Source of the DNA: Bacteroidota bacterium
GTDB taxonomy: Bacteria > Bacteroidota > Bacteroidia > Sphingobacteriales > Sphingobacteriaceae
Reading direction: 5' to 3'
NCBI GenBank assembly: GCA_013288235.1
Contig: JABDCF010000029.1
Span: 1-36,920 of the forward strand
DNA length: 36,920 nt
Shown here: positions 2,966 through 36,876 of the stretch, in pieces
Layout: each line of letters opens with the position of its first letter
Numbering within the stretch: the stretch's first letter is position 1
Notes under the pieces: model-generated
What the model saw: only the letters and a program-made list of their open reading frames with translations
What the model was told of the DNA's origin: nothing
Database searches by the model: none
Program-made: the position numbers and the translations under genes

Positions 2966-4276
2966 ATGAAAGTTTTAAAATTTGGCGGTACATCTGTAGG
3001 AAGTCCTGAGCGGATGAAAAAACTGCTGGATATAATTAACCCCGCCGAAAGGCAGATCGTGGTGTTGTCGGCCGTGTCCGGAACTACAAATAGTTTGGTC
3101 GAAATAGGGCAGGCTTACCTTGCCGGTGATAAAAATAAGGCTGCAAATATCATTCATATTTTAAAAGATAAGTACGAAGTTTTTATAAAGGAACTATTTG
3201 CCAAAAAGGAATACCTGGAGCAGGGTAAGGAGGTGATAGATTATCATTTCGGTTTGCTTAGTAACTTGGCCAATGATTTGTTTACTTCCATCGAAGAAAA
3301 AGTGATATTGGCACAAGGCGAACTGCTGTCAACTACTTTATACCACGTTTATCTAAAGGAAATAGGTGTGCCATCGGTTTTATTGCCCGCGCTTGATTTT
3401 ATGCAGATCGATGAGGATAATGAACCCATAGTAGATCATATTACCAGCCACATCACTCCATTACTTGATAAACACCCCGACAATAATTTATTTATTACAC
3501 AGGGATACATTTGCCGTAATAGTTTTGGCGAGATAGATAACCTGCGCCGCGGCGGCAGTGATTATACGGCTTCATTGATCGGCGCCGGTATCCGCAGCGA
3601 AGAGGTGCAGATATGGACCGATATCGACGGGATGCACAATAATGATCCCAGGATTGTAAATGGTACCAAACCAATTGCCCAACTGTCCTTTGATGAAGCT
3701 GCGGAGTTAGCTTACTTTGGCGCAAAGATACTGCACCCGCAAAGTGTATTCCCGGCTCAGAAATATAAAATACCGGTGCGTTTGCTGAATACGATGGATC
3801 CTAAGGCTCAGGGCACATTGATAACGAACACCAGCGAAAAGGATGCGATAAAATCGATAGCTGCGAAGGATGGCATTACTGCGATAAAAATACAATCAAG
3901 CCGGATGCTGCTGGCACATGGCTTTTTGCGCCGGGTATTTGAGGTGTTTGAGCGATATAAAACATCAATAGATATGATTACCACTTCGGAGGTTGCTGTT
4001 TCCTTAACTATTGACGATATTACTTATCTTGACGAGATCATAGTTGAGTTGCTTGCTTTTGGCTCGGTAGATATTGACAAAGACCAAACCATTATTTGCG
4101 TGGTAGGTGATTTTGGCGCCGAAAAACACGGGTACGCAGCGCGAGTGCTTGAGGCAGTAAAACATATCCCGCTAAGGATGATATCATACGGCGGCAGCGA
4201 AAATAATATGTCGTTACTGATAAAAACGGGAGATAAAACCGAGATATTGAGGAGCTTGCATAACCGTTTATTTTAG
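2966..4276 (+). CDS. lysC: Aspartate kinase
   Basis: Aspartate kinase phosphorylates L-aspartate with ATP, the committed step towards lysine, threonine and methionine. The 436-residue protein starts with the family signature KFGGTSVGSPERM (residues 4-16). The catalytic region includes RRGGSDYTA (about residues 192-200) and WTDIDGMHNNDPR. The last 130 residues or so look like the paired ACT domains that bind feedback-inhibitor amino acids. There is no fused homoserine dehydrogenase, so it is a monofunctional enzyme. lysA follows 156 bp downstream on the same strand, so the first and last steps of lysine synthesis are neighbours. A palindrome starts right at the stop codon. Feedback specificity cannot be read here. 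Confidence 0.93.
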   Translation: MKVLKFGGTSVGSPERMKKLLDIINPAERQIVVLSAVSGTTNSLVEIGQAYLAGDKNKAANIIHILKDKYEVFIKELFAKKEYLEQGKEVIDYHFGLLSNLANDLFTSIEEKVILAQGELLSTTLYHVYLKEIGVPSVLLPALDFMQIDEDNEPIVDHITSHITPLLDKHPDNNLFITQGYICRNSFGEIDNLRRGGSDYTASLIGAGIRSEEVQIWTDIDGMHNNDPRIVNGTKPIAQLSFDEAAELAYFGAKILHPQSVFPAQKYKIPVRLLNTMDPKAQGTLITNTSEKDAIKSIAAKDGITAIKIQSSRMLLAHGFLRRVFEVFERYKTSIDMITTSEVAVSLTIDDITYLDEIIVELLAFGSVDIDKDQTIICVVGDFGAEKHGYAARVLEAVKHIPLRMISYGGSENNMSLLIKTGDKTEILRSLHNRLF

Positions 4277-4359
4277 CCTCACCTAAATCCTCTCCAAAGG
4301 AGAGGACTTAAAATTCGCGCTTTTTAGAACCCTCTCTCTTGGAGAGGGCAGGGTGAGGC
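4276..4359. repeat. Palindromic intergenic element between lysC and lysA
   Basis: Outer arms GCCTCACC (4276-4283) and GGTGAGGC (4352-4359) enclose two inner hairpins, CCTCTCCAAAGGAGAGG and CCCTCTCTCTTGGAGAGGG. The element begins at the last base of the lysC stop codon. Such CTCTCC/GGAGAGG elements are common dispersed repeats in bacterial genomes. It could fold in the lysC-lysA transcript and reduce read-through or protect the 3' end. Confidence 0.8.
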
Positions 4360-4432
4360 GAAACGCGGATAAGGCTGGGATTTAACAAAACAACTTGCCA
4401 CCCCAGGAAAATAATATTTATAAAAGACAATC

Positions 4433-5647
4433 ATGTTCAACGAAGCTACTATAAATCGTTTTCAACAATTAGAAACCCCTTTCTATTACTATGACCTGGG
4501 CATATTAAGTAAAACACTTGAGGCTTGCCGGGCTGCATCATCAAAATATGGTTTTCATGTGCATTATGCCATGAAGGCCAATTTTAATCCAAAAGTGTTG
4601 GATATGATACAGTCCTTCGGTTTTGGGGCTGATTGTGTAAGCGGTAACGAAGTTAAAGCAGCCCTGGAACATGGCTTTGGCAAAGAAAATATTGTTTTTG
4701 CGGGGGTAGGAAAATCAGACAAAGAGATAAATTTTGCTTTGGATGCGGATATCTTTTGTTTCAATGCGGAATCGGTTCAGGAACTCTATATTATCAATGA
4801 TCTGGCGAAAGCCAAAAACAAAAAAGCAAACATTGCCATCCGTATAAACCCTAACGTGGATGCGCATACGCACCACTTTATAACCACCGGACTTGATGAA
4901 AATAAATTCGGCATTAATACCTGGCAGCTTGCCGAAGTTATCGATGCGTTGCGTAATTGCAATAACCTGCAATTTTTAGGCATACATTTTCATATCGGCT
5001 CGCAGATAACGGACATGGAGGTTTATAAAAACCTGTGTACCCGTATCAACGAGATACAGGATTGGTTTAATGACCATGGTTTTGAAGTAAAAGTACTCAA
5101 CACGGGCGGCGGCCTTGGCGTTGACTACCATAACCCGGATAACAACAGCATTTGCGACTTTGAAAGCTATTTTAAAGTTTTTAAAGACTTTTTGAATGTA
5201 AAACCCGGCCAGGAAGTCCATTTTGAGCTGGGCCGTGCCCTGGTTGCACAAAGTGCAGCCTTAATTTCGAGAGTGCTTTATGTAAAAAACGGGCAAAAAA
5301 AGAATTTTCTGGTTTTAGATGCCGGCATGACTGAACTTATCCGCCCGATGCTTTACCAGGCATATCATCAGATTGAGAATTTAACTCGGAAGTCAGAAGT
5401 AGGAAGTCAGAAGTCGGAAGTTGGAGATCAGGTTGTTACTTCAGACTTAGGACTTAAGGCTTTAGACTTAAAATATGATGTAGTCGGCCCGATATGCGAA
5501 AGCACGGATTGTTTCAGGAAGGATGTGGAATTGCCGCAATCCTATCGCGGCGATTTGATCGCCATCCGTACTGCCGGCGCTTATGGCGAGGTGATGGCTT
5601 CGGGCTATAATTTAAGGGACAGGGTAGGGAGTGTTTATTCGGAGTGA
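4433..5647 (+). CDS. lysA: Diaminopimelate decarboxylase
   Basis: LysA is a PLP enzyme that decarboxylates meso-diaminopimelate to L-lysine, the last step of the pathway. The 404-residue protein shows the PLP lysine in HYAMKAN (Lys48), FHIGSQ, the glycine-rich phosphate-binding GGGLGVDY, and the C-terminal GPICESTD, whose Cys/Glu help bind substrate across the dimer. Residues about 318-346, just before that motif, are a Ser/Lys/Val/Asp/Leu-rich insert encoded by an inverted word-repeat (5384-5470). The insert keeps the frame and probably forms a surface loop in the beta-barrel domain. The stop lies 1 bp from the stop of the convergent lipoprotein gene. Confidence 0.94.
   Translation: MFNEATINRFQQLETPFYYYDLGILSKTLEACRAASSKYGFHVHYAMKANFNPKVLDMIQSFGFGADCVSGNEVKAALEHGFGKENIVFAGVGKSDKEINFALDADIFCFNAESVQELYIINDLAKAKNKKANIAIRINPNVDAHTHHFITTGLDENKFGINTWQLAEVIDALRNCNNLQFLGIHFHIGSQITDMEVYKNLCTRINEIQDWFNDHGFEVKVLNTGGGLGVDYHNPDNNSICDFESYFKVFKDFLNVKPGQEVHFELGRALVAQSAALISRVLYVKNGQKKNFLVLDAGMTELIRPMLYQAYHQIENLTRKSEVGSQKSEVGDQVVTSDLGLKALDLKYDVVGPICESTDCFRKDVELPQSYRGDLIAIRTAGAYGEVMASGYNLRDRVGSVYSE
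5384..5470. repeat. Word-repeat inverted element inserted in frame in lysA
   Basis: The left part (5384-5424) repeats the word GGAAGTCAGAAGT in degenerate form. The right part (5438-5470) repeats its reverse complement (ACTTCAGACTTAGGACTT). The architecture matches the intergenic word-repeat elements in this window, but here it lies inside a coding region and adds about 29 codons without a stop. It is translated as runs such as SEVGSQKSEVG. Confidence 0.8.
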
Positions 5648-5648
5648 G

Positions 5649-6425: not shown

Positions 6426-6549
6426 ATATGGCTAATATATATCTAATTACGGATATGTTTAAGCAATTGAAACAGGTGGCAAATATTTAGTTCCAGATCA
6501 GCCTTTTTAAACCAAATAAACAGGCTTTTATATTAAGGACATTAATTTA

Positions 6550-6561: not shown

Positions 6562-6765
6562 ATGGAACCAGTGATAATGCACCCGAAAAACAAACAACAG
6601 TTAAATGCCCTGAAGGCTGTTGCCAAAGCATTAAACGTTACTTTTGAAACAGATAAAGGCGTAAAGTATGATCCTGCTTTTGTAGCCGAAGTATTAGCGG
6701 GCGAAAAGGCGGGAAAAGAAGGTAAAAAAGGGCTGAGAGTTGATGTGGAAAACCTATGGAAATAG
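6562..6765 (+). CDS. DUF2683-like antitoxin paired with YoeB toxin
   Basis: This 67-residue protein begins MEPVIMHPKNKQQLNALKAV. It resembles the short DUF2683 proteins found in front of YoeB-type toxins in Bacteroidota. The N-terminal half is probably the dimerising part and the basic/acidic C-terminus (GLRVDVENLWK) the toxin-binding tail. It overlaps the toxin gene by 10 bases, as expected for a coupled TA operon. A -7-like box sits only a few bases upstream. The function is inferred from context and resemblance. Confidence 0.8.
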   Translation: MEPVIMHPKNKQQLNALKAVAKALNVTFETDKGVKYDPAFVAEVLAGEKAGKEGKKGLRVDVENLWK

Positions 6766-7013
6766 AGCTTTACGAAAAAGCTGAAAAGGATTTTGAATAT
6801 TGGAAAAGGTCGGGTAATAAAGCTATTCAAAATAAAATACAACAACTTTTCAAGGATATGAAGAGTCACCCTTTTGAGGGTATAGGCAAACCAGAACCTT
6901 TAAAATATGCTCTTGCCGGTAAATGGTCAAGACGAATAAACGAAGAACACCTTATTGTTTATGATGTCACGGATAACATTATTAACATTTATTCTCTAAA
7001 AGGGCATTATTAA
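6756..7013 (+). CDS. yoeB: Txe/YoeB-family mRNA interferase toxin
   Basis: YoeB toxins bind ribosomes and cleave mRNA in the A site. This 85-residue protein has the expected length and family landmarks: EDFEYW-like FEYWKRSGNK near the N-terminus, GIGKPEPLKY (about 45-54), WSRRINEEHLIVY (about 60-72), and the C-terminal His-Tyr pair (LKGHY) of the active site. The Arg in WSRR and the Glu in NEEH fit known catalytic positions. It overlaps its antitoxin and looks intact. A second YoeB-type toxin lies at 12703-12981; the two share most core motifs but differ clearly at their ends. Confidence 0.92.
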   Translation: MEIELYEKAEKDFEYWKRSGNKAIQNKIQQLFKDMKSHPFEGIGKPEPLKYALAGKWSRRINEEHLIVYDVTDNIINIYSLKGHY

Positions 7014-9650: not shown

Positions 9651-9766
9651 AATTATTGAATTATTGAGTTATTGATTTTTTTGGTGCAGAAGTATAATTC
9701 AATAACTCTTTAATTCAATAAATTTTTTAAGTCAATAAATCAATAATCAGTAATTCAATAATTAAT
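9651..9766. repeat. Word-repeat inverted element between araD and araA
   Basis: Left words of the type TTATTGAATTATTGAGTTATT occupy 9651-9677. Right words of the type AATTCAATAACTC and AATTCAATAA fill 9697-9766. The element takes up almost the whole gap and ends 4 bp before the araA ATG, so the araA initiation region is made of repeat sequence. A hairpin here could set the araA level relative to araBD. Confidence 0.75.
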
Positions 9767-11263: not shown

Positions 11264-11374
11264 TTTGTCATTGCGAACGAGGAACGAGTGAAGCAATCTC
11301 GTAGCTGTGCACGACCGTTATGCATAGTTCGTTAGGCACGGCGACGAGATTGCTTCGTGCCTCGCAATGACAAA
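11264..11374. repeat. TGTCATTGCGA-type palindromic repeat
   Basis: TTTGTCATTGCGA (11264-11276) pairs with TCGCAATGACAAA (11362-11374), and the inner arms GAAGCAATCTCGT and ACGAGATTGCTTC also pair. This is a very widespread type of bacterial intergenic repeat. It sits between the convergent araA and HAD genes, where it could serve as a two-way terminator. Confidence 0.85.
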
Positions 11375-11387
11375 CGGTATGGAATGG

Positions 11388-12390: not shown

Positions 12391-12433
12391 TTGTACGATA
12401 TAAAGTTGTTTTATTGTACATTTGTACGTACAA
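12391..12433 (+). promoter_or_regulatory. YefM-type operator and promoter of the TA operon
   Basis: TTGTAC occurs at 12391-12396, 12414-12419 and 12422-12427. The last copy is half of the perfect 12-bp palindrome TTGTACGTACAA (12422-12433). TGTACA at 12415-12420 is the core motif described for the E. coli YefM operator. It overlaps a full -7 box, TACATTTG (12417-12424), with TTG at 12391-12393 as -33 after a 23-bp gap. Binding here would block transcription, which fits autorepression. Confidence 0.75.
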
Positions 12434-12443
12434 GCACGTTATT

Positions 12444-12701
12444 ATGAAAGCAATTACCATTTCTTTATTGAGGCATAAAATGAAGTCTTTCTTTGATGCT
12501 GTTAGCAGTGCACAGGATGTGCTTGTTGTTCCGCGGAATAATAATGAGGATGATGCTGTGGTCATCATTTCAATAAAAGAATACAATTCATTAAATGAAA
12601 CCGCCCACCTCCTTTCTACCGCGGCTAATAGGAGGCGTTTAGAGGAATCAATGCAGCAACTTCAATCCGGAAAAACCATTCCATTCAAACTGGAAGATTA
12701 A
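12444..12701 (+). CDS. Phd/YefM-family antitoxin
   Basis: From the ATG at 12444 this is an 85-residue protein starting MKAITISLLRHKMKSFFDAV. An upstream in-frame start at 12414 would lie inside the promoter and is rejected. The N-terminal two-thirds fits the YefM/Phd DNA-binding fold, including VPRNNNEDDAVVIISIKEYN, the usual strand-helix unit. The C-terminal helix (residues about 60-85) would wrap the toxin. The toxin gene follows after 1 bp. TGTACA sites in the promoter support autoregulation by this protein. Confidence 0.9.
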   Translation: MKAITISLLRHKMKSFFDAVSSAQDVLVVPRNNNEDDAVVIISIKEYNSLNETAHLLSTAANRRRLEESMQQLQSGKTIPFKLED

Positions 12702-12702
12702 T

Positions 12703-12981
12703 ATGAATATTGATTTTACTGCTAATGGCTGGGAAGATTTTGAATATTGGATAGAAAATGATCCTGATAGCATCACCAAAATACGCGAGTTGCTAAAATC
12801 GATAAGGCAAACGCCTTTTTCGGGCTTAGGCAAGCCCGAACCATTAAAATATGGGTTAAAGGGGCTTTGGTCGAGAAGAATAACCGGGGAGCATAGATTA
12901 GTGTACCAGGTTTCAGGGAATAAGGGGACAGATCAAAAATGCACAATAGTACAATGCCGGTTTCATTACCTGGACAGATAG
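12703..12981 (+). CDS. yoeB: Txe/YoeB-family mRNA interferase toxin
   Basis: This 92-residue toxin is second in the pair with the YefM-like antitoxin. It shows WEDFEYWIENDP, GLGKPEPLKYGL, WSRRITGEHRLVY and a near-terminal CRFHY, whose His-Tyr are active-site residues in YoeB. The Glu and Arg positions are also kept. About seven residues between the central strand and the last strand (NKGTDQK) are longer than in the 6756-7013 toxin, and four residues follow the HY pair. It appears intact and is expected to act on mRNA in the ribosomal A site. Confidence 0.93.
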   Translation: MNIDFTANGWEDFEYWIENDPDSITKIRELLKSIRQTPFSGLGKPEPLKYGLKGLWSRRITGEHRLVYQVSGNKGTDQKCTIVQCRFHYLDR

Positions 12982-14978: not shown

Positions 14979-15046
14979 AAAGAATCAAGAGCCAAGAATC
15001 AAGTAGTAAAATAGCTCCTGATTCTTGGCTCTTTACTCTTGGCTCT
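14979..15046. repeat. Word-repeat inverted element between convergent genes
   Basis: Words of the type AAGAATCAAGAGCCAAGAAT on the left (14979-15002) pair with CTGATTCTTGGCTCTT and CTCTTGGCTCTC on the right (15018-15047). The element fills the gap between the two stop codons almost exactly. A long hairpin followed by T-rich sequence could terminate transcription in both directions. Confidence 0.8.
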
Positions 15047-15821: not shown

Positions 15822-16457
15822 GAGTGTTCGAAAGATTTTTAAAAAGCTGTGGCAACGTGCGATTCCTTCCTTGGGGAAGGAGCAATGTCATTAAGTTAAG
15901 AGAATTAATATCGAACACCCAACACCGAATTTTGAATAATAAAGTAAGAAACTTCGAAATTCGATATTCAAAATTCATTATTCGATATTAAATTCCTTCA
16001 CTTTTTCCTTAACTTAATGACATTGGGGGAAGGAGGAGGTAGGGGTTTAGCGAACTATTTAGACACCGTTTCAAGGGTTACCGTCCGCAAACATAGCGGC
16101 GAAACCCCTCCCCGCCACCTCACAGCCTACCGCAACCCCTCCCCTTTAAGTTAACCCACAAAAATAAGCAGCAAATAACGCACCGTTAATATAAAATCGG
16201 CGATCACCAAACGTTCCTATGGAACGTAAAAACGATTTTTGACTCGATTTCTACCAACCAGGCATCCCTACAGCACGCATTTTTTGTTTTTTCGTCCCAT
16301 CGGGACGTCTGGTTGGTAGAAAATATAGTCGCCAACAAATGCGTTCCGTAGGAACGTTTGGTGAAATCGACTACTATATCCGCCTAACCAAATTTTGTGG
16401 GTTAACTTAAACCCCTTGGAGGGAGTTTTGGCGGCAAGTCAAATCTTTCGAACACTC
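15822..16457. repeat. Six nested palindromes (composite repeat region)
   Basis: Perfect arm pairs lie one inside another. Outer: GAGTGTTCGAAAGATTT (15822-15838) with 16441-16457. On its left flank is a separate pair, CAATGTCATTAAGTTAAG (15883-15900) with 16008-16025, enclosing the 15905-15991 element. On its right flank is TTTAAGTTAACCCACAAAA (16145-16163) with 16393-16411. Inside that lie CACCAAACGTTCC (16205-16217) with 16351-16363, TTTCTACCAACCAG (16248-16261) with 16309-16322, and CGTCCCATCGGGACG (16293-16307). No reading frame in this 865-bp gap looks real. Confidence 0.85.
15905..15991 (+). repeat. Dispersed palindromic element, copy 1
   Basis: Arms TAATATCGAA (15906-15915) and TTCGATATTA (15981-15990) flank words such as CGAATTTTGAAT. 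The blocks TTAATATCGAACACCCAA, GAATTTTGAAT and GTAAGAAACTT recur in the same order, on the opposite strand, at 36797-36876. Confidence 0.8.
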
Positions 16458-16610
16458 GTAATTTGGGAATTTCGATTTCGGATTTTTTTTGCACCTTCGT
16501 CCTTCTATTTAAACCATCCAATACTGCAAACTGCTACTGCCCACTGCAAACTACACAACACTGGCATCGTTATTGTTCTAATAATCCTATCTACTAAATA
16601 TCAAAACAAC

Positions 16611-19236: not shown

Positions 19237-19472
19237 GATTTCACCGATTATGTTAGGATTTCACCGATTATAAAAAAGATTTCACAGATTATTTAAAAAA
19301 GATTTCACAGATTAGTGATGGTGATTGCACCGATTGTAATTTTTAAAATCTACTTCGTCACTTTAACTGCGTAAATTTGCACCCCGGATCATTTGAATTT
19401 ATCGATAGTCTCTTTTAAATCGGTGTAATCATAATCTAATCGGTGAAATCATAATAAGTAATCGGTGTAATC
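19237..19472. repeat. Word-repeat inverted element around the Smr-gene promoter
   Basis: GATTTCACCGATTA occurs at 19237-19250 and 19257-19270, with GATTTCACAGATTA variants near 19278 and 19301. The reverse complement TAATCGGTGAAATC lies at 19437-19450, with close variants at 19418-19430 and 19460-19472. Between the arms, TAAATTTG (19372-19379) is a possible -7 box for the gene at 19482, so the right arm would be its 5' leader. One more copy of the word lies at 12303-12316. Confidence 0.8.
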
Positions 19473-19481
19473 CCCAAAAAA

Positions 19482-20429
19482 ATGAAATATAAATTAGGTG
19501 ATTTTGTGCGCTTTGTTGACGAGAAAATGGAAGGTTTTGTAACCCGGATCATTGACGATCAGATGATCGGCGTTACCGGTGAGGACGATTTTGAGATACC
19601 GGTGCTGGCCAGTAAAGTAACAACAGTACACGGTTATCAGCCTCCCGGCACAACAAAAAATATTGCTGACGTTGCTGAACCTGCCGTTACAGGTGAATTT
19701 AAAACCAAAGGCGTGTATATAGCGGTGGCAGCGGATGCCAAAGCTAATTCGGTGGTGCATTTTCATTTGGTTAATGATACCTCGTTCCAGTTATTGGCAA
19801 CCCTGACTACTGAAAAACAGCAGAAATTTAAAGGGGAATATGCAGGCATAATCGCACCAAACACAGCTGTAAAAATTTATTCCGAGCAATTGGCCGATCT
19901 GCAACTTTGGCCAAAGTTTGTATTCAACGTCCTGTTTTATACTACACTAAATATTGAACCGCCTGCGCCATTAGCAGTAAGCGAAAAGTTTAAAGCAAAA
20001 GATTTTTCGGGTACGAAAAAACAAGTACCCATATTAAACCAACCTGGCTGGGTAATTCAACTTGACGAAGCGGAGGTAATAATAGATGCCCAAAAGCTAA
20101 AGGAGAGTTTTTTTAAATCGCCCGAAGATAAAGCCGTTATTGAAAAACCCGTTGCTGAGGTTGACCTGCATATTGAGAAATTACGTAATGACTATCAATT
20201 TATAAACAGCACCGAAATAATGAGCATACAGTTGGCCTATTTCCACAAAATGCTTGACGCGGCCGTTGTTCATCAACTACCGGAAATTACATTTATCCAT
20301 GGCGCCGGAAACGGTACCTTGCGGCACGAATTGCATAAAATTTTAAGCAAACATCAAAAAATACAAACCTTTATAGATGCACGTAAAGAGAAATTCGGGT
20401 ATGGGGCAACAAAGGTTTTGTTGAAATAA
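19482..20429 (+). CDS. DUF2027 and Smr-domain protein
   Basis: This 315-residue protein starts KYKLGDFVRFVDEKMEGFVT, a Tudor/SH3-like opening of DUF2027 proteins. It continues with a beta-rich domain (about residues 70-200) and ends with an Smr domain (about 225-315) containing VDLHIEKL and HGAGNGTLRHEL. Smr domains occur at the end of MutS2 and in free-standing nucleases that act on branched or stalled nucleic acid; MutS ATPase parts are absent here. The short leader is made of word-repeat sequence, and ATG 19482 follows ten bases after it. The substrate is unknown. Confidence 0.9.
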   Translation: MKYKLGDFVRFVDEKMEGFVTRIIDDQMIGVTGEDDFEIPVLASKVTTVHGYQPPGTTKNIADVAEPAVTGEFKTKGVYIAVAADAKANSVVHFHLVNDTSFQLLATLTTEKQQKFKGEYAGIIAPNTAVKIYSEQLADLQLWPKFVFNVLFYTTLNIEPPAPLAVSEKFKAKDFSGTKKQVPILNQPGWVIQLDEAEVIIDAQKLKESFFKSPEDKAVIEKPVAEVDLHIEKLRNDYQFINSTEIMSIQLAYFHKMLDAAVVHQLPEITFIHGAGNGTLRHELHKILSKHQKIQTFIDARKEKFGYGATKVLLK

Positions 20430-20468: not shown

Positions 20469-20501
20469 TTTGTCGTTCTGAGCGAAGCGAAGAATGACAA
20501 A
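20469..20501. repeat. Short palindromic repeat between convergent genes
   Basis: TTTGTCGTTCT (20469-20479) pairs with AGAATGACAAA (20491-20501), with GAGCGAAGCGA in the loop. This is a widespread intergenic repeat type. Placed between the convergent Smr and DUF3472 genes, it may act as a terminator. Confidence 0.8.
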
Positions 20502-20507
20502 AAAGTA

Positions 20508-23063: not shown

Positions 23064-23726
23064 ATGGAAACAGCAAAAAAGACAGTGGCATTTTTCTTAT
23101 TGATGTGTGCGGCGTTAAGCTATGTGAATGCTCAAAAAAAAATAAACGAAGGGACAGTTACCTACGATGTAAGCTACGAGCTGAATGCCGACCAGCTTCA
23201 ATATGCCAGCCTGTTGCCAAAAGAGATTACCTGTTATTTTAGAGGTGACTCTTGCGCATCCATTGTTAACCAGGGGCCGGCAAAAATAAAAGGAGTTACC
23301 GTTTTTAAGGCGAATTACCGCAGCCTGCTGGTTGATATGCCCACTTCATCAAAAAAGATAGTTGTAGTTTTTACGCCCGATGAAGTAGCGCAGGAAAAAG
23401 CTGCAAACCCGCAGCTTACAGGTGTTAAAGGAACAGAAAAACAAATTATTGATGGGTATAGTTGCAGCAAAGTAAGTATTACTGATACAAAAAATGGCGC
23501 CGTTTACGAAATATGGGTGACCAACGATATTGACCTTGCGCCAAACTCCCTGAGTAAGTTGGTAAGTGATTTTGGCGGCGTGCCTGTAAAGTTTGTAACT
23601 TTTAACCGGGGCATAAAGGTTAATGCCGAGATTAAGGAAATTAAAGAGATGCCTGTACCCCCTGGTTTTTTTAGTGCCACGAAAGATTATCAGCCCATGA
23701 CGCTAAGTGAGTTGCAGGCGATGTAG
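23064..23726 (+). CDS. Secreted protein, GLPGLI/DUF4412-like
   Basis: This 220-residue protein has a signal peptide (about residues 1-23, ending VNAQ). The mature part opens INEGTVTYDVSYELN and contains DGYSCSKVSI followed by YEIWVTNDI, a pattern seen in Bacteroidota periplasmic proteins of the GLPGLI and DUF4412 type. No catalytic residues are evident. It is alone on the plus strand between minus-strand sugar genes. A word-repeat element follows directly after its stop. Confidence 0.75.
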   Translation: METAKKTVAFFLLMCAALSYVNAQKKINEGTVTYDVSYELNADQLQYASLLPKEITCYFRGDSCASIVNQGPAKIKGVTVFKANYRSLLVDMPTSSKKIVVVFTPDEVAQEKAANPQLTGVKGTEKQIIDGYSCSKVSITDTKNGAVYEIWVTNDIDLAPNSLSKLVSDFGGVPVKFVTFNRGIKVNAEIKEIKEMPVPPGFFSATKDYQPMTLSELQAM

Positions 23727-23734: not shown

Positions 23735-23876
23735 ATGTGCAGATGTGCGGATTTTAAATGTGCAAATTAAAAAAGAGCTGCGAATGTGCGGATACTAAGA
23801 TGTGCGGATAAGATTACCAAATTTCAAACGCAACCGTTTCAAATCCGCACATCTGCACATCAAAAATCCGCACATT
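23735..23876. repeat. Word-repeat inverted element between convergent genes
   Basis: ATGTGCAGATGTGCGGATTT (23735-23754) pairs perfectly over 20 bp with 23841-23860. Further copies of the word ATGTGCGGAT occur inside (about 23784 and 23800), and AATCCGCACATT lies at 23865-23876. It fills the gap between the convergent DUF4412-like and creatininase-like genes. Confidence 0.85.
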
Positions 23877-24751: not shown

Positions 24752-24832
24752 AACGATATAAATCAGGTTTATAAAATAGGTTGGTTAGCGGGGTATTTGA
24801 ACGATGAATTTACAAAGTTTTTTTGTCTGAAC

Positions 24833-24909
24833 TGTTGATTTTATTGATTTAAAGATACCGCCGATTTTTATTGAAACGGCCAACGAAATCCTTAAATCAT
24901 TAAAATCAA
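24833..24909. repeat. Word-repeat inverted element upstream of the creatininase gene
   Basis: TGTTGATTTTATTGATTTAA (24833-24852) pairs with the reverse complement in TTAAATCATTAAAATCAACG (24892-24911) with few mismatches. The loop also contains GATTTTTATTGAAACGG. It lies in the minus-strand gap between a small gene and the creatininase gene. Confidence 0.65.
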
Positions 24910-24918
24910 CGGTCTGGT

Positions 24919-27597: not shown

Positions 27598-29379
27598 TTA
27601 TCTTTTATGCCTCTTCTTACTTTTTATATGATGCGCTGCACCCTGTTTTAAATGACCGTGTTGTTCTGAGTGATGATGCCCGGTTTTTGTCCCGCGGTTA
27701 TGGTGATGGTGCCTGTTTTTACCAGCCGGTTTTGTAATGCGGGGCATAAAATCGATAGCCTCGGGATGAAATGATGTATCAAATGGGTTGAAATAATAAA
27801 TACCTGCCTTATCATAAAGCGCAAAGTTGATTTTTAACCGTTCATTAAATGAGGCTTCGTCCTTTTTTACGGCATCGGTCCATGCAGCTTCTGCCAGTGC
27901 AGCTAAACGAGGGTAAATCATAAAATCAAGCCTTTTGTCTGATCCGATGGTTTCCGTCCAGATATTTGCCTGTATCCCTAAAACCTGGTTCGATTGCAGC
28001 TCATCAGATGGCATCACTTTGTCAGGGAAATTATAAACATCGCTCACGCTGTTAAAAAATGCTCCGTTCCACCTACGACCCGAAATGTGGCTTTTATCCT
28101 GCACAAAATCAAAATACAATGGCAAACGTGGACAAAGTACTACCTGGTAATTTTTTTGAAGCGCCAATGTCAATTGCGAGGGAACATTTTGCCGCCACCA
28201 AAAAACGATAGTCTTACCGGCTGGCAGGTCGGTTTCAGTAGCCTCATCCCAGCAAAGGATCTTATCGCCCATGCTTATAACCGTATCCGTCATCCGGCGG
28301 AAAAAATAATGCTCAAGGTCAGTAAGGTCTGTAAACTTATTTTTCGCCATCATATCTGTTATAGCTGGCCTTCCAGCCCAGGCTTGCATGCCTAAAGCGA
28401 CTTCATCGCCCCCTAAATGGATCATGTGAGCAGGAAAAAGAACATTAACCTCTTTCAATATATCAGCCAAAAACGGGTACGTTTTCTCGTTGGCCGGATC
28501 GAAGGTGAAATTGGGATATTTGTATATACTTCCCCCGCTAAATTCGGGATACGCCTTATTTGCTGCGGTAGCATGGCCCGGCATATCAATTTCGGGGATA
28601 ACGGTTATAAACCTGTCGTTGGCATATGCTACTATTTCTTTAATATCATCCTGGGTATAATATTTGGCAGCAGCCAGTGTATCCGAGTGATTGCCTATGC
28701 TGCCCACAGCTGTTAATAGCGGATATTTTTTTATTTCGATGCGCCAGCCGTCAACATCGGTTAAATGCCAGTGAAACTTGTTCAGCTTATAAAAGGCCAT
28801 CCAATCCAGTAACTGTTCAACTTTTTCTTTTCCAAAAAAATGGCGCGATTCATCCAGCATAAAACCGCGCCACTGGTACCTGGGCGCATCTGTAATTTCA
28901 CATGCCGGTAAAACAACGTGGCTTGCAACAGGTTGGGCCCTGATGAGTTGCAGTAATGATACTATCCCGTAAAAAATACCTTCACTGCCCGAGGATTGGA
29001 TAGTTACTTTTTGAGGTTCAATTTTTAAAGTATAGGTACCGGGCAATTGGTTTTTTTGCACCAGTTGAAGGTCGATAATCGCCTTTATCTCGTGTTGGTC
29101 CACCGCTATCGTCCAGGCATTGGCTTTTAGCAATTCTGTCTGAAGATAATTAGCCTCGGGCAACAGCGAATCATTGTTCATCCCGATAACAGTATTGCTG
29201 TTCAATTCAAACAATCCGTTACCTTTTACAAATGATTTTGGCGCAGGTATGATGTTGATATTTTGGGCAGAAAGAAAAAAAGGAAATAAAAGAAACACGA
29301 ATAACACGAATTTATTCGAATTTACACAAATGCAGTTTTGCTTACGGCGTGGAGATAACTTTTTACTGTTCGTGCTCAA
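27598..29379 (-). CDS. Secreted GH20 beta-N-acetylhexosaminidase
   Basis: This 593-residue protein removes terminal N-acetylglucosamine or N-acetylgalactosamine from glycans. It has a GH20b alpha/beta domain (about residues 40-165) and a TIM barrel that starts near YQWRGFMLDESRHFF. The catalytic pair is Asp325-Glu326 in HLGGDEV; KFHWHLTDVDGWR and PEIDMPGHA are also typical. The last 44 residues or so are basic and contain 12 histidines, including runs of four and three. The start is a TTG at 29379; the signal peptide (about 24-39) is partly encoded by a word-repeat element. There is no usable ATG. Confidence 0.92.
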   Translation of the reverse strand: MSTNSKKLSPRRKQNCICVNSNKFVLFVFLLFPFFLSAQNINIIPAPKSFVKGNGLFELNSNTVIGMNNDSLLPEANYLQTELLKANAWTIAVDQHEIKAIIDLQLVQKNQLPGTYTLKIEPQKVTIQSSGSEGIFYGIVSLLQLIRAQPVASHVVLPACEITDAPRYQWRGFMLDESRHFFGKEKVEQLLDWMAFYKLNKFHWHLTDVDGWRIEIKKYPLLTAVGSIGNHSDTLAAAKYYTQDDIKEIVAYANDRFITVIPEIDMPGHATAANKAYPEFSGGSIYKYPNFTFDPANEKTYPFLADILKEVNVLFPAHMIHLGGDEVALGMQAWAGRPAITDMMAKNKFTDLTDLEHYFFRRMTDTVISMGDKILCWDEATETDLPAGKTIVFWWRQNVPSQLTLALQKNYQVVLCPRLPLYFDFVQDKSHISGRRWNGAFFNSVSDVYNFPDKVMPSDELQSNQVLGIQANIWTETIGSDKRLDFMIYPRLAALAEAAWTDAVKKDEASFNERLKINFALYDKAGIYYFNPFDTSFHPEAIDFMPRITKPAGKNRHHHHNRGTKTGHHHSEQHGHLKQGAAHHIKSKKRHKR

Positions 29380-29528
29380 TCAATTAGTATAATTCGGGTT
29401 AGATCAATTCGTTTAAATTCGGGGCAGTTAAAATTAGGATTATTGAAGTAATAATCCGAAAAATTCATACAAATAAATTCAGATGCTCGCGCAACCTTGA
29501 TTTGTGGTCATTCGTGAAAATTCGTGCC
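29292..29528. repeat. Word-repeat inverted element crossing the GH20 gene start
   Basis: Words of the type AACACGAATAACACGAATTT (29295-29314), then TTCGAATTTACACAAA, are matched by reverse-complement words such as TTTGTGG, CATTCGTGAAAATTCGTGC (29509-29527) and CAATTCGTTTAAATTCG. The left arm lies inside the GH20 reading frame. The rest fills the 156-bp gap to the end of the GT39-type gene. Confidence 0.65.
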
Positions 29529-31260: not shown

Positions 31261-31707
31261 TTAATGTGCAGTAGCCAATTCTTTGGTCGTGTTCATTACA
31301 CTGGCATTGCGCAAATGGGCATTTGCTGTTGAAATTAATTTATAAGGCCGGTTAAAAGCTTCTTGTCTTACCTTAAAACGGTCAGCCAATTTCCTGATGA
31401 TCTCTTTTGAAAAACCTTTGCGATAGTGCAATAATTCGGATACGGTGCTTTTATTTACCCCTAATAATGTTGCTATATCCTTGGCTTTTAGTTTATTTTC
31501 ATCCATCAGGTATTTTAATAACTCCACCGGGTCAGCTTCACTTAGGGTGCTGTGTTCTTCATCCCATTTTTCAATCAACACAGTTAACAGGTCAATTTCA
31601 TCTTCAAGGGTTTCGTTTTCCTTTTCGCCAACTAATTTTTCTAATATATTACAATACTCCCAGTACTGTTCTTCTGTTTTTATGATCTTATATTTTAGTG
31701 TTTCCAT
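31261..31707 (-). CDS. higA: HigA-type antitoxin with Xre-family HTH
   Basis: This 148-residue protein is second in a toxin-first operon. The N-terminal part (about 1-60) is acidic and helical. Residues about 70-120 form a helix-turn-helix (LKAKDIATLLGVNKSTVSEL, then LLHYRKGFSKEIIRKLADRF). It is expected to neutralise HigB and to repress the operon by binding near the HigB start. It begins 12 bp after the HigB stop. The C-terminal tail (TANAHLRNASVMNTTKELAT) looks unstructured. Confidence 0.9.
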   Translation of the reverse strand: METLKYKIIKTEEQYWEYCNILEKLVGEKENETLEDEIDLLTVLIEKWDEEHSTLSEADPVELLKYLMDENKLKAKDIATLLGVNKSTVSELLHYRKGFSKEIIRKLADRFKVRQEAFNRPYKLISTANAHLRNASVMNTTKELATAH

Positions 31708-31719
31708 CCTGTATTTTTT

Positions 31720-32073
31720 TTAATACATCCTGCTATTGTATTGTTTGTTGGCCTTACATAGTTTGGTATACTCAGCATGTGTACCTATCAAGCAAATTGT
31801 AAGATGAACCCTTGTTCTGGCAAAATCATACTTTGCTATCAACCTGTAATTATTCCCACCAATATCAAAAACCACCCTTTCGCTTCCATTGCCCAATAAA
31901 TCGGCTGAACCGAGCGCTGCTAATATATCTTCCGGCGTATTCCAATCAGCACTTTTGATCACTGTCAACCAAAGCCTGAAAGAGTTTTTACTAACAGCAT
32001 GTTTTGCAATAAACTCTTCGACAGTTTTTTCTTTGATCAGGTGTACACGCGTACAATATTCAAAGATAAGCAA
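31720..32073 (-). CDS. higB: HigB-type mRNA interferase toxin; start codon doubtful
   Basis: HigB toxins cleave mRNA on ribosomes. The body matches the long HigB type: RVHLIKEKTVEEFIAKHA, SFRLWLTVIKSADW, DLLGNGSERVVFDIGGNNYR, then VHLTICLIGTHAEYTKLCK. Catalytic-type basic and aromatic residues are present. Family members usually start Met-Arg-Val-His, but here the codon before Arg-Val-His (32050-32052) is ACG. The only in-frame alternative is a TTG at 32073, which lies upstream of a -7-like box. The gene is either initiated at a rare codon, expressed from TTG, or silenced by a start mutation. No frameshift is seen. Confidence 0.8.
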   Translation of the reverse strand: MLIFEYCTRVHLIKEKTVEEFIAKHAVSKNSFRLWLTVIKSADWNTPEDILAALGSADLLGNGSERVVFDIGGNNYRLIAKYDFARTRVHLTICLIGTHAEYTKLCKANKQYNSRMY

Positions 32074-33248: not shown

Positions 33249-33346
33249 GGCTCCGCTGGAGCCCGAATTTTCTCTTTTTCTGCATCTATAAACACGCGAC
33301 TCCGCTGGAGTCGGGGGGGGGGTAAGAATATAGCTCCGGCAGGAGC
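33249..33346. repeat. CTCCGnnGGAG hairpin cluster with a G10 tract
   Basis: There are three short hairpins: GGCTCCGCTGGAGCC (33249-33263), CGACTCCGCTGGAGTCG (33297-33313) and GCTCCGGCAGGAGC (33333-33346). A run of ten G lies at 33313-33322. They share a core and look like one REP-like family. The 323-bp gap (33150-33473) holds nothing else that I can support; an 85-residue minus frame across it is made of repeat sequence. Confidence 0.75.
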
Positions 33347-33473
33347 ATCCTTTTTATAGACAAGATGATTCCGCATTTTGGGCTCCGAAGGTGCCTCCTT
33401 TTTAAAAGCGACCTGACAGGCGAGTAAGGTACATGCTTTTTTATTTGCCCGGCTTTTCATATCTTAGGGACAT

Positions 33474-33722
33474 ATGGAAAACAGGAGACTAAGAAGAAGG
33501 CAACTCAATCGTTTTTTAAGGGCGTTGATTGAAACAGGCTTTATAATTTTCCTGTTTTACTCTAATTTATTAATGGGCGAATTTACCAAAACAGGGAATG
33601 CACGACATAAAAGCATCCTTTGGGCTGTTAATGACATTTTTACAACAACTAATTTTGAAATAGCCATTGCTGCTGCAATATTGGGCTATATGGTATTTGA
33701 ATTTCTTCGGAAAAAGCTATGA
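33474..33722 (+). CDS. Small two-helix membrane protein
   Basis: This 82-residue protein has a basic N-terminus (MENRRLRRRQLNRFLR) and two hydrophobic segments, at about 17-35 and 60-78. The space between holds ARHKSILWAVNDIFTTTNFE, which I associate with small Bacteroidota membrane proteins of unknown role. The ATG at 33474 is the only good start. It converges with the phosphatase gene; four bases separate the stops. Confidence 0.7.
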   Translation: MENRRLRRRQLNRFLRALIETGFIIFLFYSNLLMGEFTKTGNARHKSILWAVNDIFTTTNFEIAIAAAILGYMVFEFLRKKL

Positions 33723-33726
33723 CCTT

Positions 33727-34260
33727 TTATTGTTTTCCTGCATAATAGGCTTCCAATTCTTTTAGTCTTTCAATTTGCCCCGGACGGGGATTGATAAATA
33801 CCCTCACCCTTTTTACCATTGCATATGCATCGGCAAATGTTAGGCCTGTTTTTATTAAATAAGCCATGGCCATTGTTGGGCCACGGCCCAATCCCTGGCG
33901 GCAGTGTACATAAACTATCCCGTTGTGTTTAATTTCGTTATCTATAAAATCAGCGCCTTTTATCAGCACATCCAGCGGTGGCGGCGTGTTATCAACAGTG
34001 GGCAGGTGCAGGTATTTTATCCCTTCGTACACGGCATCACTATACGTATTATGCACCCGCATGTTTACTATGGCGGTTACACCGAGCGCTTTAAGTTTTC
34101 GTAGCCCCAATAAATTATACTGGCTTCCTAAAAATAAGTGTGCTGTTATTTGCGACCGGTTTAAACGTGGCAGGCCGGTGATGATGCGGTGTGCATTATC
34201 ATACATATAATCTAAAACCAAACCTATACCAACGAATTTACTTTTTATGTTATTGAACAT
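33727..34260 (-). CDS. Dual-specificity protein phosphatase-like protein
   Basis: This 177-residue cysteine-based phosphatase has the active-site loop VHCRQGLGRG, with nucleophile Cys120 and Arg126 (CX5R). Asp90 in LPTVDNTPPP is a good general acid, with PRPGQIERL after the loop as expected. The domain occupies residues about 40-170; the N-terminal 30 residues are short and without a clear signal. Family members dephosphorylate Ser/Thr/Tyr or phospholipid head groups. No partner kinase is adjacent, so the substrate is open. The ATG at 34260 is adequate. Confidence 0.88.
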   Translation of the reverse strand: MFNNIKSKFVGIGLVLDYMYDNAHRIITGLPRLNRSQITAHLFLGSQYNLLGLRKLKALGVTAIVNMRVHNTYSDAVYEGIKYLHLPTVDNTPPPLDVLIKGADFIDNEIKHNGIVYVHCRQGLGRGPTMAMAYLIKTGLTFADAYAMVKRVRVFINPRPGQIERLKELEAYYAGKQ

Positions 34261-34262
34261 CC

Positions 34263-34300
34263 TGAAAGCTGAAGGCTTAAAGCGAAAAGCAGAAAGCGTA
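34263..34300. repeat. AAAGC-word repeat tract
   Basis: Degenerate words of the type GAAAGCTGAAGGC and GCGAAAAGCAGAAAGCG are repeated over about 38 bp upstream of the phosphatase gene. No clear reverse-complement arm is seen here, so it may be a half element. Confidence 0.4.
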
Positions 34301-34344
34301 CTGCATAGTTATTAATTTAAAAAGGAAATCACCTATCCTTTGTT

Positions 34345-35121
34345 TTATTTTAGCTGTTGCGTAATATAATCCATCGCCTGCTGAAAGGTTGCCACCCATA
34401 TGTCCTTTTTATTGTTTTTAAGATATTCCAATAATTCCCTGTGCGATGCTGCCGGGGTGGTAATGTAATCACCGCCTACGCCATGAAACATAAAAATGCC
34501 CATACCGCTGCTTTGCTGCACCCTTTTAACAAAAGTGATAAGCTGTGCGCCGGTGGCATTATCCTCTACGCCATATGAAGGTATTTGTAACAGGTCGAGG
34601 TTTTTAAAATCGGTTACAACCGCATCAACATCGCCGCCAACCCGGGCATATTTTACAAGGCCGGCTTTGCGTAAAGTATCCACATAGCTTTTTCCGCCAA
34701 TGGTTGTTTCTGCACACGGGTAGGCGTAGGTACGCGACGTTTTACCATCAACAGCATATAAAAAATCATTCATTGCGCCAATCTCACGCACAATGGTGTA
34801 GGGGGTGTAACTTTCGGATGCTACCGGGTTATCGTTCGAGTTCATGCAGGGATGATAAAGCGTGTGGTTTGCCAGTTCGAATCCCTTTTTACTTAATGCC
34901 CGCCATCTGGGGATGGTTACGTAATTAATATCACCCGTCAGAAAAAATGTGGCTTTAAATTTTGCTGAATCCAGTTGTGGGACAGCTACATCCAGTTGCG
35001 AACTTAGGGCATCATCATAAGTAAGTACAATAACCGCTTTTTTATGGTCGGGCCACGCAATTTTAGGCTGTGCATATGCTATAACATTTAATAGTAAAAA
35101 AAACAGGGTAAGCCTTTTCAT
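34345..35121 (-). CDS. Secreted polysaccharide deacetylase (NodB-type)
   Basis: This 258-residue protein has a signal peptide (MKRLTLFFLLLNVIAYAQ). The NodB motifs are present: motif 1 TYDDALSSQ (Asp36, Asp37), motif 2 NHTLYHP (His86, His90, metal ligands), motif 3 in YAYPCAETTIGG, and a final FHGVGGDY His. It should remove N- or O-acetyl groups from a glycan in the periplasm or outside the cell; peptidoglycan, chitin-like and xylan substrates are all known in the family. It is read alone; its promoter region (35122-35387) is AT-rich with a 20-bp palindrome at 35158-35177. Confidence 0.9.
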   Translation of the reverse strand: MKRLTLFFLLLNVIAYAQPKIAWPDHKKAVIVLTYDDALSSQLDVAVPQLDSAKFKATFFLTGDINYVTIPRWRALSKKGFELANHTLYHPCMNSNDNPVASESYTPYTIVREIGAMNDFLYAVDGKTSRTYAYPCAETTIGGKSYVDTLRKAGLVKYARVGGDVDAVVTDFKNLDLLQIPSYGVEDNATGAQLITFVKRVQQSSGMGIFMFHGVGGDYITTPAASHRELLEYLKNNKKDIWVATFQQAMDYITQQLK

Positions 35122-35157
35122 GGGGTATTTTGAGTATAAATATTATGATGGGAAATT

Positions 35158-35177
35158 AATTAAAAATATTTTTAATT
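35158..35177. promoter_or_regulatory. Perfect 20-bp AT palindrome between divergent genes
   Basis: AATTAAAAATATTTTTAATT is a perfect palindrome in the 266-bp gap between the deacetylase and histidine-kinase genes. It may be a regulator site or just AT-rich sequence. I see nothing else definite in that gap. Confidence 0.3.
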
Positions 35178-35387
35178 GCCTGATAATTAATCTTATTTTT
35201 CGATAAAAAATACAAAGTTATACAGGTTATTGCCAAACCTTTAATATCCATTTTCGTATAAAGGGTAAGGCCGCCCCGCTAAAAATATATCTTCTAAAAT
35301 AAACTTATCCATAAAATTGCTGAAACATAATTTTAATAATTGAAACACAGGGGGCTGCGCCGGGTTGTTTATTTAAATAGTAAAACG

Positions 35388-36713
35388 ATGCGATCATTTT
35401 GGGCAAGTATTATTGGTCGACCACCAGGGTTCTCATTAGAGGCACGCATCTTTAATGCCATTTGCCTTACCTCGGCGGTATGTTTATTTCTAACGTTTTT
35501 CTTAAACATCCTGCTTGGCATCCAGCAACTGGTTATTTTAATGGCGGCCATATTTATAATCGCGGTAATATGTTATTATTATGCCCGGTTTAAAATGAAG
35601 TTGAATGCTTGCGTTATTGTTTACATGATAGCCATAAACGGGTTGTTGATCGTAAACTTTAAATATAACTCGGGTATCAATGGGCCTACGCTTTTAATTT
35701 TCATACTTTCCTATTTCCTTACCCTATCTATTGTCCCTCAAAAACAATATTGGTTCTGGATACCCGTTAACCTGCTTATTGTTTTTTGCTTGTTGCTTAT
35801 AGGGTATAAATACCCTGCAACCATTATAAATACCTATGCCGATACCAAGAGCCGTTTTATAGACGTCGGCAGCACCTATGTTTTTATAACGATATTTATT
35901 TTCCTGGTCACGGTTTATGTGAGGAAGGGTTACCGCACCGAACAAAAATTAGTTGAGCAAAAGGCCACCGAACTGGAGATTGCAAACGACACAAAGGATA
36001 AATTATTTTCTATCCTTGCCCACGACCTGCGGTCGCCGCTCGCTTCCATTCAAAATTACCTGGAGATATTGTCGGAATTTAATATCGATGAAACAGAAAG
36101 GTTGTCAATAAACAAGGCGCTTTTAAATTCTACACGCAATACACAGCAAATGCTTGGAAACCTGCTTTTCTGGAGCAGATCGCAAATGGAAGGTGTAACC
36201 GTAAACCTGGTTAAGCTTAACCTGAAAGAAATTTTACAAAGCACATTCCAGGTACACCAAACAATTGCTGAAGAAAAAGACATCCAGCTTACTGATAATT
36301 TAAAAAACGGTTGTCTTGTTATTGCTGACGCGGATATGTTGCAACTGATAGTGAGAAACTTAATAAACAACGCCATTAAATTTACAAGGCCGGGCGGCGA
36401 GATCATTGTATCAGATGATATTGTTGGCGACAATTGCCGCATCATTATAAAAGACAGCGGTATTGGTATTCCTTATCAACAACAGACTGATATTTTTTCA
36501 TTAAAGGCAAGCTCAACCTTCGGCACTAAAAATGAAAAAGGTGTAGGGTTAGGTTTAGTACTGTGCAAAGAATTTACCGAATTGCAAAATGGCAGTATTT
36601 CATTTGAAAGCAAACCGGGAGTTGGGACTACCTTTTATGTTAGCTTTAAGCTCGCCCACGATGCAAGCAATAACAAAGTAGAGTTAGAAGAAAAGTTGGT
36701 TAAGGAAGCATAA
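35388..36713 (+). CDS. Membrane sensor histidine kinase
   Basis: From the ATG at 35388 the protein has 441 residues; a TTG at 35340 would add 16. Five or six hydrophobic segments (about residues 20-180) form a membrane sensor region without a recognised large periplasmic domain. After a coiled linker come HisKA with LAHDLRSPL (His about 212) and a HATPase_c domain: N-box NLINNAIKFT, G1 DSGIGIP, then GVGLGLVLCKE and GTTFYV. All parts of a working kinase are present. No response regulator lies next to it in this window, so it is an orphan here. Confidence 0.93.
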   Translation: MRSFWASIIGRPPGFSLEARIFNAICLTSAVCLFLTFFLNILLGIQQLVILMAAIFIIAVICYYYARFKMKLNACVIVYMIAINGLLIVNFKYNSGINGPTLLIFILSYFLTLSIVPQKQYWFWIPVNLLIVFCLLLIGYKYPATIINTYADTKSRFIDVGSTYVFITIFIFLVTVYVRKGYRTEQKLVEQKATELEIANDTKDKLFSILAHDLRSPLASIQNYLEILSEFNIDETERLSINKALLNSTRNTQQMLGNLLFWSRSQMEGVTVNLVKLNLKEILQSTFQVHQTIAEEKDIQLTDNLKNGCLVIADADMLQLIVRNLINNAIKFTRPGGEIIVSDDIVGDNCRIIIKDSGIGIPYQQQTDIFSLKASSTFGTKNEKGVGLGLVLCKEFTELQNGSISFESKPGVGTTFYVSFKLAHDASNNKVELEEKLVKEA

Positions 36714-36796
36714 ACTTGCGATCACATGAACTTTAATACCCAAATTAACATTTCATTAATGACAACAGCTTGTCAGCAAGTAAAATATCCCTTTTA

Positions 36797-36876
36797 TTAA
36801 TATCTAATAACGAATTTCGAATAGTAAAGTTTCTTACCTCGTCATTCAAAATTCGTTATTGGGTGTTCGATATTAA
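36797..36876 (-). repeat. Dispersed palindromic element, copy 2
   Basis: On the minus strand this contains the blocks TTAATATCGAACACCCAA, GAATTTTGAAT and GTAAGAAACTT, in the same order as at 15905-15991, with other words between them changed. It is followed by arm-like GAAATTCGTTATTAGATATT. It lies 83 bp downstream of the histidine-kinase stop; the rest of the end of the window shows no gene. Confidence 0.8.

Follow-up and report, generated by a model that had tools for sequence, protein, structure and literature searches.

Arrays of short words at fixed sites whose words change between species in a Mucilaginibacter-like bacterium and its relatives

The usual explanation for short intergenic repeats is either a transposase or selection on the repeat sequence. 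Repetitive extragenic palindromes (REPs) have a partner, the REP-associated tyrosine transposase (RAYT). The short tandemly repeated repetitive (STRR) sequences of heterocystous cyanobacteria are degenerate tandem heptamers between genes, with several families per genome. Rickettsia palindromic elements occur in frame in housekeeping genes as well as between genes, and each family has one conserved sequence. Here we describe elements made of short, degenerate word arrays in contig JABDCF010000029.1 of assembly GCA_013288235.1 (the window is the whole stretch of 36,920 nt that was analyzed; contig C29 of genome G000 in our numbering). An earlier note on this DNA had described seven loci with one hairpin plan, in which a word is repeated with errors and, after a spacer, follows several times in reverse complement. 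We find word turnover at fixed sites, which is a new result of this work.

Several described systems share parts of this plan. REPs are described as dispersed short intergenic palindromes with a consensus that carries a GTAG or CGTC tag (PMC3733652, PMC12306157; see also PMC3116915, PMC2817692). Direct TAACTGA repeats are reported from Beggiatoaceae, Cyanobacteria and Bacteroidetes, with no evident mechanism of transmission (MacGregor 2015, PMC4679880); they are a fixed heptamer, mostly just upstream of start codons, with a few copies inside open reading frames (ORFs) and one inverted case. The same paper summarizes long simple sequence repeats with an excess of heptamers, where the 7 nt step is proposed to reflect polymerase interaction and slippage (Mrazek 2007, summarized in PMC4679880). 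Template switching is reported to create and maintain hairpins (PMC8794818). Among the open-access papers that our searches listed, titles and openings of abstracts show none that deals with degenerate word arrays in inverted pairs or with an exchange of words between orthologous sites.

The source genome is a draft of 4.37 Mb (70.6% complete). Several Mucilaginibacter proteins are among the closest named relatives of its lysA product, and we call the bacterium Mucilaginibacter-like. Each species is represented by one genome throughout, so that all comparisons are between species.

A coding slot in lysA

The earlier note had placed all of its loci in gaps, leaders and operon gaps. One of them, at 5384-5470, instead lies inside the reading frame of lysA (4433-5647), where it encodes RKSEVGSQKSEVG...DLGLKALDL. 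In the encoded diaminopimelate decarboxylase, the insert falls between two conserved motifs, YQAYHxIEN and YDVVGP. The segment between them is shorter in the two best solved relatives and ranges from 11 to 36 residues in the 36 species of the genus that were read as DNA (13-48 residues in the 109 readable of 120 listed protein matches). The reading frame is open across the site in 45 loci, and 46 matches, seven of them ending short of the site, contain no stop codon.

Compared with shuffled inserts, 22 of the 36 species, our own included, have a word array at this site at p<0.05, and 21 at p<0.01. Arrays are also present in five of nine genomes that belong to other families of the class, clearly so in three (ATCAACA, TCTCGTC and TCTCAAA). 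At least nine different words occupy the site; those in the genus include AAGTCNG, AAGTCCGA, AAGAATC, ACTCACA, GCACCCC, CTCAAAT, GACCATG, GGATCAG, GGAAGCA and GAGCGGG. Two different words stand next to each other in G020, G001 and G021.

The period of the arrays does not follow the reading frame. When periods of 6, 7, 8, 9, 14, 15 and 16 were tried, the best-scoring one was 7 or 14 in 17 of the 22 genus arrays and 8 or 16 in the other five, never a multiple of three, even though the site is coding. Hence, protein selection by itself cannot account for the period, and the repetition is determined at the level of the DNA.

The words change often. On a 30-species tree built without the insert, in which 12 of 27 inner branches are open, hand-assigned word labels require at least 14 changes. 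The labels as a whole do not cluster on the tree beyond the level of shuffled labels (26 of 200 shuffles give as low a value), although some clustering is seen for the label "none" (18 of 500 shuffles).

For some arrays lysA is the only place in the genome according to exact searches, which may miss degenerate copies. This holds for GGAAGCA in G017 (8.2 Mb searched) and for GGATCAG in G028 (4.4 Mb searched). An array of the GCACCCC word, CACCCCGCACCCCGCAC, likewise has lysA as its single exact match in G006 (88% complete), whereas G021 has it at lysA and at one other place. The arrays of two close species, G013 and G031, differ by 15 nt in frame inside the array. The earlier note had suggested that a process makes or grows such elements locally, and the single-site arrays of G017, G028 and G006 together with the difference in unit number between close species support it. 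Length changes tabulated among close lysA proteins show no clear 7-residue step.

Orthologous gaps between genes

Relatives carry the same plan at the orthologous lysA, araA, Smr/DUF2027 and creatininase sites, so the pattern is not confined to our genome. Thirty loci were read for each of the three sites outside lysA. The gene upstream of the element at 9651 is a class II aldolase by domain match, and we take it and the gene on the other side to be araD and araA. Around araA, four other genomes share the upstream gene of ours. The gap upstream of araA holds six TCATTAG units in G008, a GTGAGTAG hairpin in G026 and ATTCACT-type words in G009 and G032.

The leader of the Smr/DUF2027 gene carries the GATTTCACCGATT family in G000, G096, G023, G113, G106, G033 and G072. 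In G089 a GATTTAGCTGATT-type hairpin lies between the same flanks as in G106. Past the stop codon of the creatininase gene we find ATGTGC words in G000, G014 and G117, GTTGATTAA in G096 and AAGAATC in G065. Other loci have ACTTACGAAGT or GTCATTGCGAGG palindromes or no evident repeat, and the far-side gene often differs between the loci read.

A separate observation concerns the Smr/DUF2027 loci of G106 and G089 (L139 and L145). A tract of about 400 nt before the hairpin is near-identical, compared with 85.7% identity overall, and the near-identity stops at the swapped hairpin, as if recombination had ended there.

The pair G013/G031 allows the slots to be counted. Their chained alignment covers 155.5 kb at 93.7% identity, and an orthologous gap was scored as novel when it held at least 25 nt of species-specific sequence. 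Of 95 gaps, 17 are novel in both species, one only in G013, four only in G031 and 73 in neither. If the two species were independent, 4.0 gaps novel in both would be expected (p 4e-14). Three of the 17 have drifted rather than swapped; for the remaining 14, with counts entered by hand, p is 3e-12. Some of these 14 represent one family with changed insides, or a gene difference.

By eye, the two species carry different repeats in eight places (47725, 49014, 198204, 204285, 223665, 238383, 243443 and 244191). The swap at 238383 is less clear, and at 244191 one side also has a longer unrelated sequence. Three places show presence versus absence (4863, 199109 and 219373) and six show changes within one family (44518, 198682, 204538, 235280, 242940 and 247436). 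Whole-unit differences are seen at lysA (the 15 nt mentioned above) and at 204538 (18 nt). Most of the swapped repeats are palindromes and not word arrays, hence the slot behavior seems to be wider than the word elements.

Two further observations belong to this pair. In the gap near A:238383 a hairpin before a T run, which resembles an intrinsic terminator, also differs completely. The family of a strong palindrome in our window (GTCATTGCGAAC...CGCAATGAC at 11264-11382, DNA fold z -8.5) is among the frequently swapped elements.

Words, periods and arms across the window and the genome

Within the window, a strict detector (a 9-mer repeated within 60 nt, with its reverse complement within 300 nt) finds five merged sites (9653, 14988, 15907, 19237 and 23741), compared with 0.2-0.3 per shuffled window. 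A 400 kb sample of our genome yields 24 sites against 2.2 in shuffled sequence. We also folded the DNA of each element and compared it with 200 dinucleotide shuffles. Six of the seven loci of the earlier note (5384, 9651, 14979, 19237, 23735 and 24833) fold better than every shuffle, so the common hairpin plan stands for these, with the qualification that 24833 has only about two units. The hairpin at 29292 is unsupported (z -1.2; 25 of 200 shuffles fold equally well), though CACGAAT-type words are present. Including the elements at 15905 and 36799, eight of nine word elements of the window out-fold their shuffles (Table 1). Rfam has no match to the window at gathering score.

Table 1. Word elements of the window; z is the DNA fold score against 200 dinucleotide shuffles
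Position	Strand	Element and surroundings	Evidence
634..672	+	GATTTCGG-type array right after the stop at 632; inverted partner none noted	5 places in 400 kb vs 0.6 shuffled
5384..5470	+	AAGTCNG word array with imperfect inverted arm, in frame inside lysA (ORF 4433-5647)	z -3.4; word turnover at the site in relatives
9651..9764		TTATTGAA word hairpin in the gap between the class II aldolase gene and araA, starting 4 nt past the stop	z -4.9; dispersed family; other words in orthologous gaps
14979..15046		AAGAATC/AAGAGCC word hairpin, convergent ORFs on both sides	z -5.3
15905..15992		TTCGATATTC/CGAATTTTGAATA word hairpin, outside the seven earlier loci	z -4.4; 4 places in 400 kb
19237..19473		GATTTCACCGATT word hairpin, leader of the Smr/DUF2027 gene (19482-20429), between divergent ORFs	z -7.1; strict detector; same family in 6 other species, another family in G089
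23735..23876		ATGTGCGG word hairpin, convergent ORFs, 9 nt past the stop at 23726	z -6.9; words differ at the orthologous gaps of relatives
24831..24913		GTTGATTTTATTGATTT hairpin upstream of a creatininase-like gene, only about two word units	z -6.1
29294..29526		CACGAAT/ATTCGTG words, start of a glycosyl hydrolase 20 gene and gap; weakest member	z -1.2
36799..36867		AATAACGAATTTCGAAT word hairpin past the last ORF	z -3.4, 1/200 shuffles as good; 3 places in 400 kb

The words form a dispersed lexicon of families and not one transposon. Recurring words in a tandem-repeat survey of a sample of our genome are AAGTCNG, AAGAATC, AGGTAAA, AGTGAGT, GTTGATTAA, GTTGAAAT, ATTTGAAA, AATTATTG, ATGTGCGG, ACCATGAGCTATGA, GATTTCGG, AACTGCAAACTGCC, TTCGATATTC and others. 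This multiplicity of families rules out a single transposon family and bears out the earlier note, which had argued against copies of one transposon. The same note had taken the word to be different at each locus. There are indeed many words, but mostly they are not locus-specific and belong to dispersed families. The element at 9651, for example, has 28 more places in the genome at E<0.001 (nearby matches merged by hand; 40 of 81 candidates scored).

For recurrence within the 400 kb sample we used BLAST with 10 shuffled controls per element, which replaced a 14-mer dispersal count that failed to separate elements from controls. Five of the nine word elements (5384, 14979, 23735, 15905 and 36799) recur above all 10 controls. 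In this sample 19237 (two places) only equals its best control, and 9651 (1 vs 1.6 shuffled), 24833 (1 vs 0.3) and 29292 (0) do not exceed theirs.

A survey of 74 stretches (1.446 Mb of our genome and congeners, with genes called mechanically) found 170 arrays, 102 of them intergenic, 65 genic and three at edges. Intergenic periods are mainly 7 (15 arrays), 14 (32), 8 (14) and 16 (10). Periods 7 and 14 together make up 47 of the 102 arrays, which places a tandem 7 nt step among them, and 8 and 16 make up 24. The earlier note had given a word length of about 8-14 bases; the intergenic units are mostly 7 or 8 nt. Genic arrays peak at periods of 12 and 15.

The partner of an array within 300 nt is predominantly inverted for 60 of the 102 intergenic arrays, predominantly direct for 10 and of both kinds for three. 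The same test, made once in the surroundings of other arrays, gives 21 inverted and 24 direct partners. A word also keeps its arm: it lies in the same arm in 87 element pairs and in the opposite arm in six, where elements of one family or of related genomes are not independent. G-rich words lie on the left in 32 of 37 elements, but in only seven of eight families (p 0.07), and this polarity is not significant at lysA (p 0.06). Within an element the two arms are closer to each other than to the rest of their family (mean rank 0.34 with p 0.006, based on 33 arrays in about 17 elements, with both arms of an element counted).

Arrays of four AAGTCNG units occur in at least 120 stretches of many phyla, cyanobacteria included. 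Among viral contigs 106 stretches have AAGTCNG arrays and 39 the AAGAATC type, compared with 58, 97 and 32 for the scrambled controls AGCATNG, TGAACNG and ATGACNG, of which TGAACNG is a poor control that itself resembles a repeat word. Since arrays of heptamers turn up often irrespective of the word, the sharing of a word between phyla is no evidence, and we reject a universal word. An inverted partner accompanies four of the 69 analyzable AAGTCNG loci among 80 listed (11 are at contig edges). Among 395 genomes in the phylum, three have the exact AAGTC hairpin (G000, where it occurs twice, G004 and G360) and none has its scrambled control.

The window contains other repeats and loci. Nested palindromes (GTTCC...GGAAC, CCCATCGGGACG and TTTAAGTTAACCCACAAAA) lie at 16145-16411; their GTTCC/GATGGGACG motifs also flank Y1_Tnp (RAYT) genes at loci L033 and L036, and the stretch is likely a REP-type element, or bacterial interspersed mosaic element (BIME), of a resident RAYT. 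A palindrome (CTCACC...CTCTCCAAAGGAGAG...GGTGAGG, 4276-4362) follows directly on an ORF that ends at 4276, with five places in 400 kb and z -5.1. At 20470-20502 stands GTCGTTCTGAGCGAAGCGAAGAATGAC, which we take to be a kind of palindromic repeat found in many genomes. An array of AACTGC/CACTGC words at 16515-16562 (three places in 400 kb) has no clear hairpin. Pfam matches mark loci of toxin-antitoxin type at 6756-7013 (YoeB toxin), 12414-12981 (PhdYefM antitoxin and YoeB toxin) and 31261-32073 (helix-turn-helix protein and HigB toxin).

Origin of the elements and comparison with known systems

To explain these observations, we propose that short arrays of 7-9 nt words, most of them with an inverted second array, occupy fixed slots, where they are born and grow in place by slippage and obtain the second arm by fold-back template switching. 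We give this account an even chance. An array would arise and grow locally by replication slippage with a step of 7-8 nt. Fold-back template switching would then make the inverted arm, and occasionally a whole hairpin would be copied to a new place. Such copying would account for the almost constant arm of a word family. The slots would persist because they are tolerated and prone to hairpins, and not through a function of the particular word. Slippage and turnover are our reading of the single-site arrays, of unit numbers that vary between close species and of the non-triplet period within coding sequence.

Several results weigh against this account. Many words are dispersed (GTCATTAG, the word of G008 upstream of araA, has five places in that genome), and slippage alone is therefore insufficient. 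In a stricter test of common derivation the inverted partner was more similar than the best other family member for only 12 of 85 arrays; hence, many arms look like samples of a dispersed family and not like fresh fold-back copies. Twenty-nine of the 102 intergenic arrays have no partner within 300 nt. The likeness of lysA words to local Ser-Arg codons is only suggestive (p 0.06 and 0.24, from a hand-made table). Co-occupancy of gaps in G013 and G031 might also arise if a few gaps are permissive.

The last point can be extended to a full alternative: ordinary dispersed repeats insert anywhere without preference and are tolerated only in some few gaps and one protein loop, which gives orthologous sites the look of slots. 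Gaps, with 102 arrays in 187 kb, are far richer in arrays than coding sequence, with 65 in 1.25 Mb, as this alternative would have it, and 14 of the 36 genus species lack a significant lysA array, so arrays are dispensable there. However, the excess of co-occupied gaps survives when placement is weighted by gap length (17 observed, 5.6-5.7 expected, 0 of 20000 draws reaching 17), and the lysA arrays of three species are single-site by exact search. Exact target-site duplications of 4-9 nt at the arm ends are found in none of 43 paired elements (0.4 at shifted positions), a test limited by ends that were set by arm pairing. We regard permissive sites as a somewhat unlikely explanation of the whole pattern; they may explain part of the slot effect.

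Selection or a transposase could also maintain the elements. If the elements were selected RNA hairpins at gene ends, serving termination or protection from exonucleases, any folding sequence would do and words could drift or swap. Most window elements do out-fold their shuffles, and 42 of 91 elements lie within 20 nt of a stop edge (28.6 expected, at most 38 in 2000 draws), compared with 25 of 89 near a start edge (19.3 expected, P 0.04). But in tandem gaps elements are no nearer to the stop (32 of 57, p 0.43), 16 of the 102 intergenic arrays lie in divergent gaps, and elements also occur within the lysA reading frame, between two genes on one strand (9651) and in a leader flanked by divergent ORFs (19237). 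Only three of the 43 paired elements have a T run (TTTT) after the hairpin, compared with 4.1 at shifted positions. We reject intrinsic terminators for this lack of enrichment and consider selected gene-end hairpins in general improbable. Mobile palindromes resembling REPs or miniature inverted-repeat transposable elements (MITEs), moved by a RAYT or another transposase and decaying internally into tandem words, would account for dispersed families with one polarity, and the genome does have six Y1_Tnp (RAYT) genes. The flanks of these genes carry other palindromes, however: GTTCC/GATGGGACG/CTGTCAGCGGG motifs, chosen post hoc from the flanks, are present at three of six RAYT loci and at none of 120 background blocks, whereas our word motifs are near none of the six and in 39 of the 120, a small sample with which average density is still compatible. 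One TTCAAATC array lies about 250 nt past the RAYT of L035, and further arrays are more than 1 kb from that of L037. The GTAG/CGTC tag is not enriched at the hairpin foot (four of 43 elements, 5.2 at shifted positions), and the missing target-site duplications count here as well. Membership in a RAYT/REP system is not supported, given the lack of tag enrichment and the absence of our word motifs at the six RAYT loci, and we judge mobile palindromes of any such kind very improbable.

Local slippage with fold-back copying can be taken one step further. The elements might renew themselves without a transposase: a DNA process with a step of 7-8 nt would rewrite arrays at the same slots, make hairpins of fixed polarity and let one hairpin overwrite another. 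The slot would be inherited and the word would not, and lysA would be such a slot across several families of Bacteroidota. We put this forward tentatively, as a possibility that is rather doubtful at present.

In our data the place is conserved and the sequence is not, both between genomes that are 93.7% identical and within coding sequence that has a non-triplet period. LysA in this genus is a natural reporter. Births of arrays, gains of units and changes of word can be read from strain collections, which makes the question of transmission testable.

Each described system shares some of these features. Like the STRR sequences, our elements are intergenic, degenerate tandem heptamers of several families. 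Unlike them, they belong to Bacteroidota, are mostly inverted pairs, swap words at orthologous sites and form in-frame arrays in lysA. With Rickettsia palindromic elements they share an in-frame palindromic insert in a housekeeping gene (lysA, with its frame open in relatives and a fold of z -3.4), but the lysA insert is built of tandem words and differs between species. The TAACTGA repeats are similar in being intergenic heptamer arrays in distant phyla with a few copies in ORFs; here we find many words and inverted pairs, and stop edges are abutted more than start edges. REPs, BIMEs and REP doublets forming hairpins (REPINs) are likewise dispersed short intergenic palindromes; our elements differ in showing no enrichment of the tag and in having words that do not stand beside the six RAYTs. 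The repeats of Mrazek 2007 have the same 7 nt step but are direct, and the summary in PMC4679880 mentions neither inverted pairing nor word swap. Template switching (PMC8794818) is a possible source of the inverted arm that we propose here.

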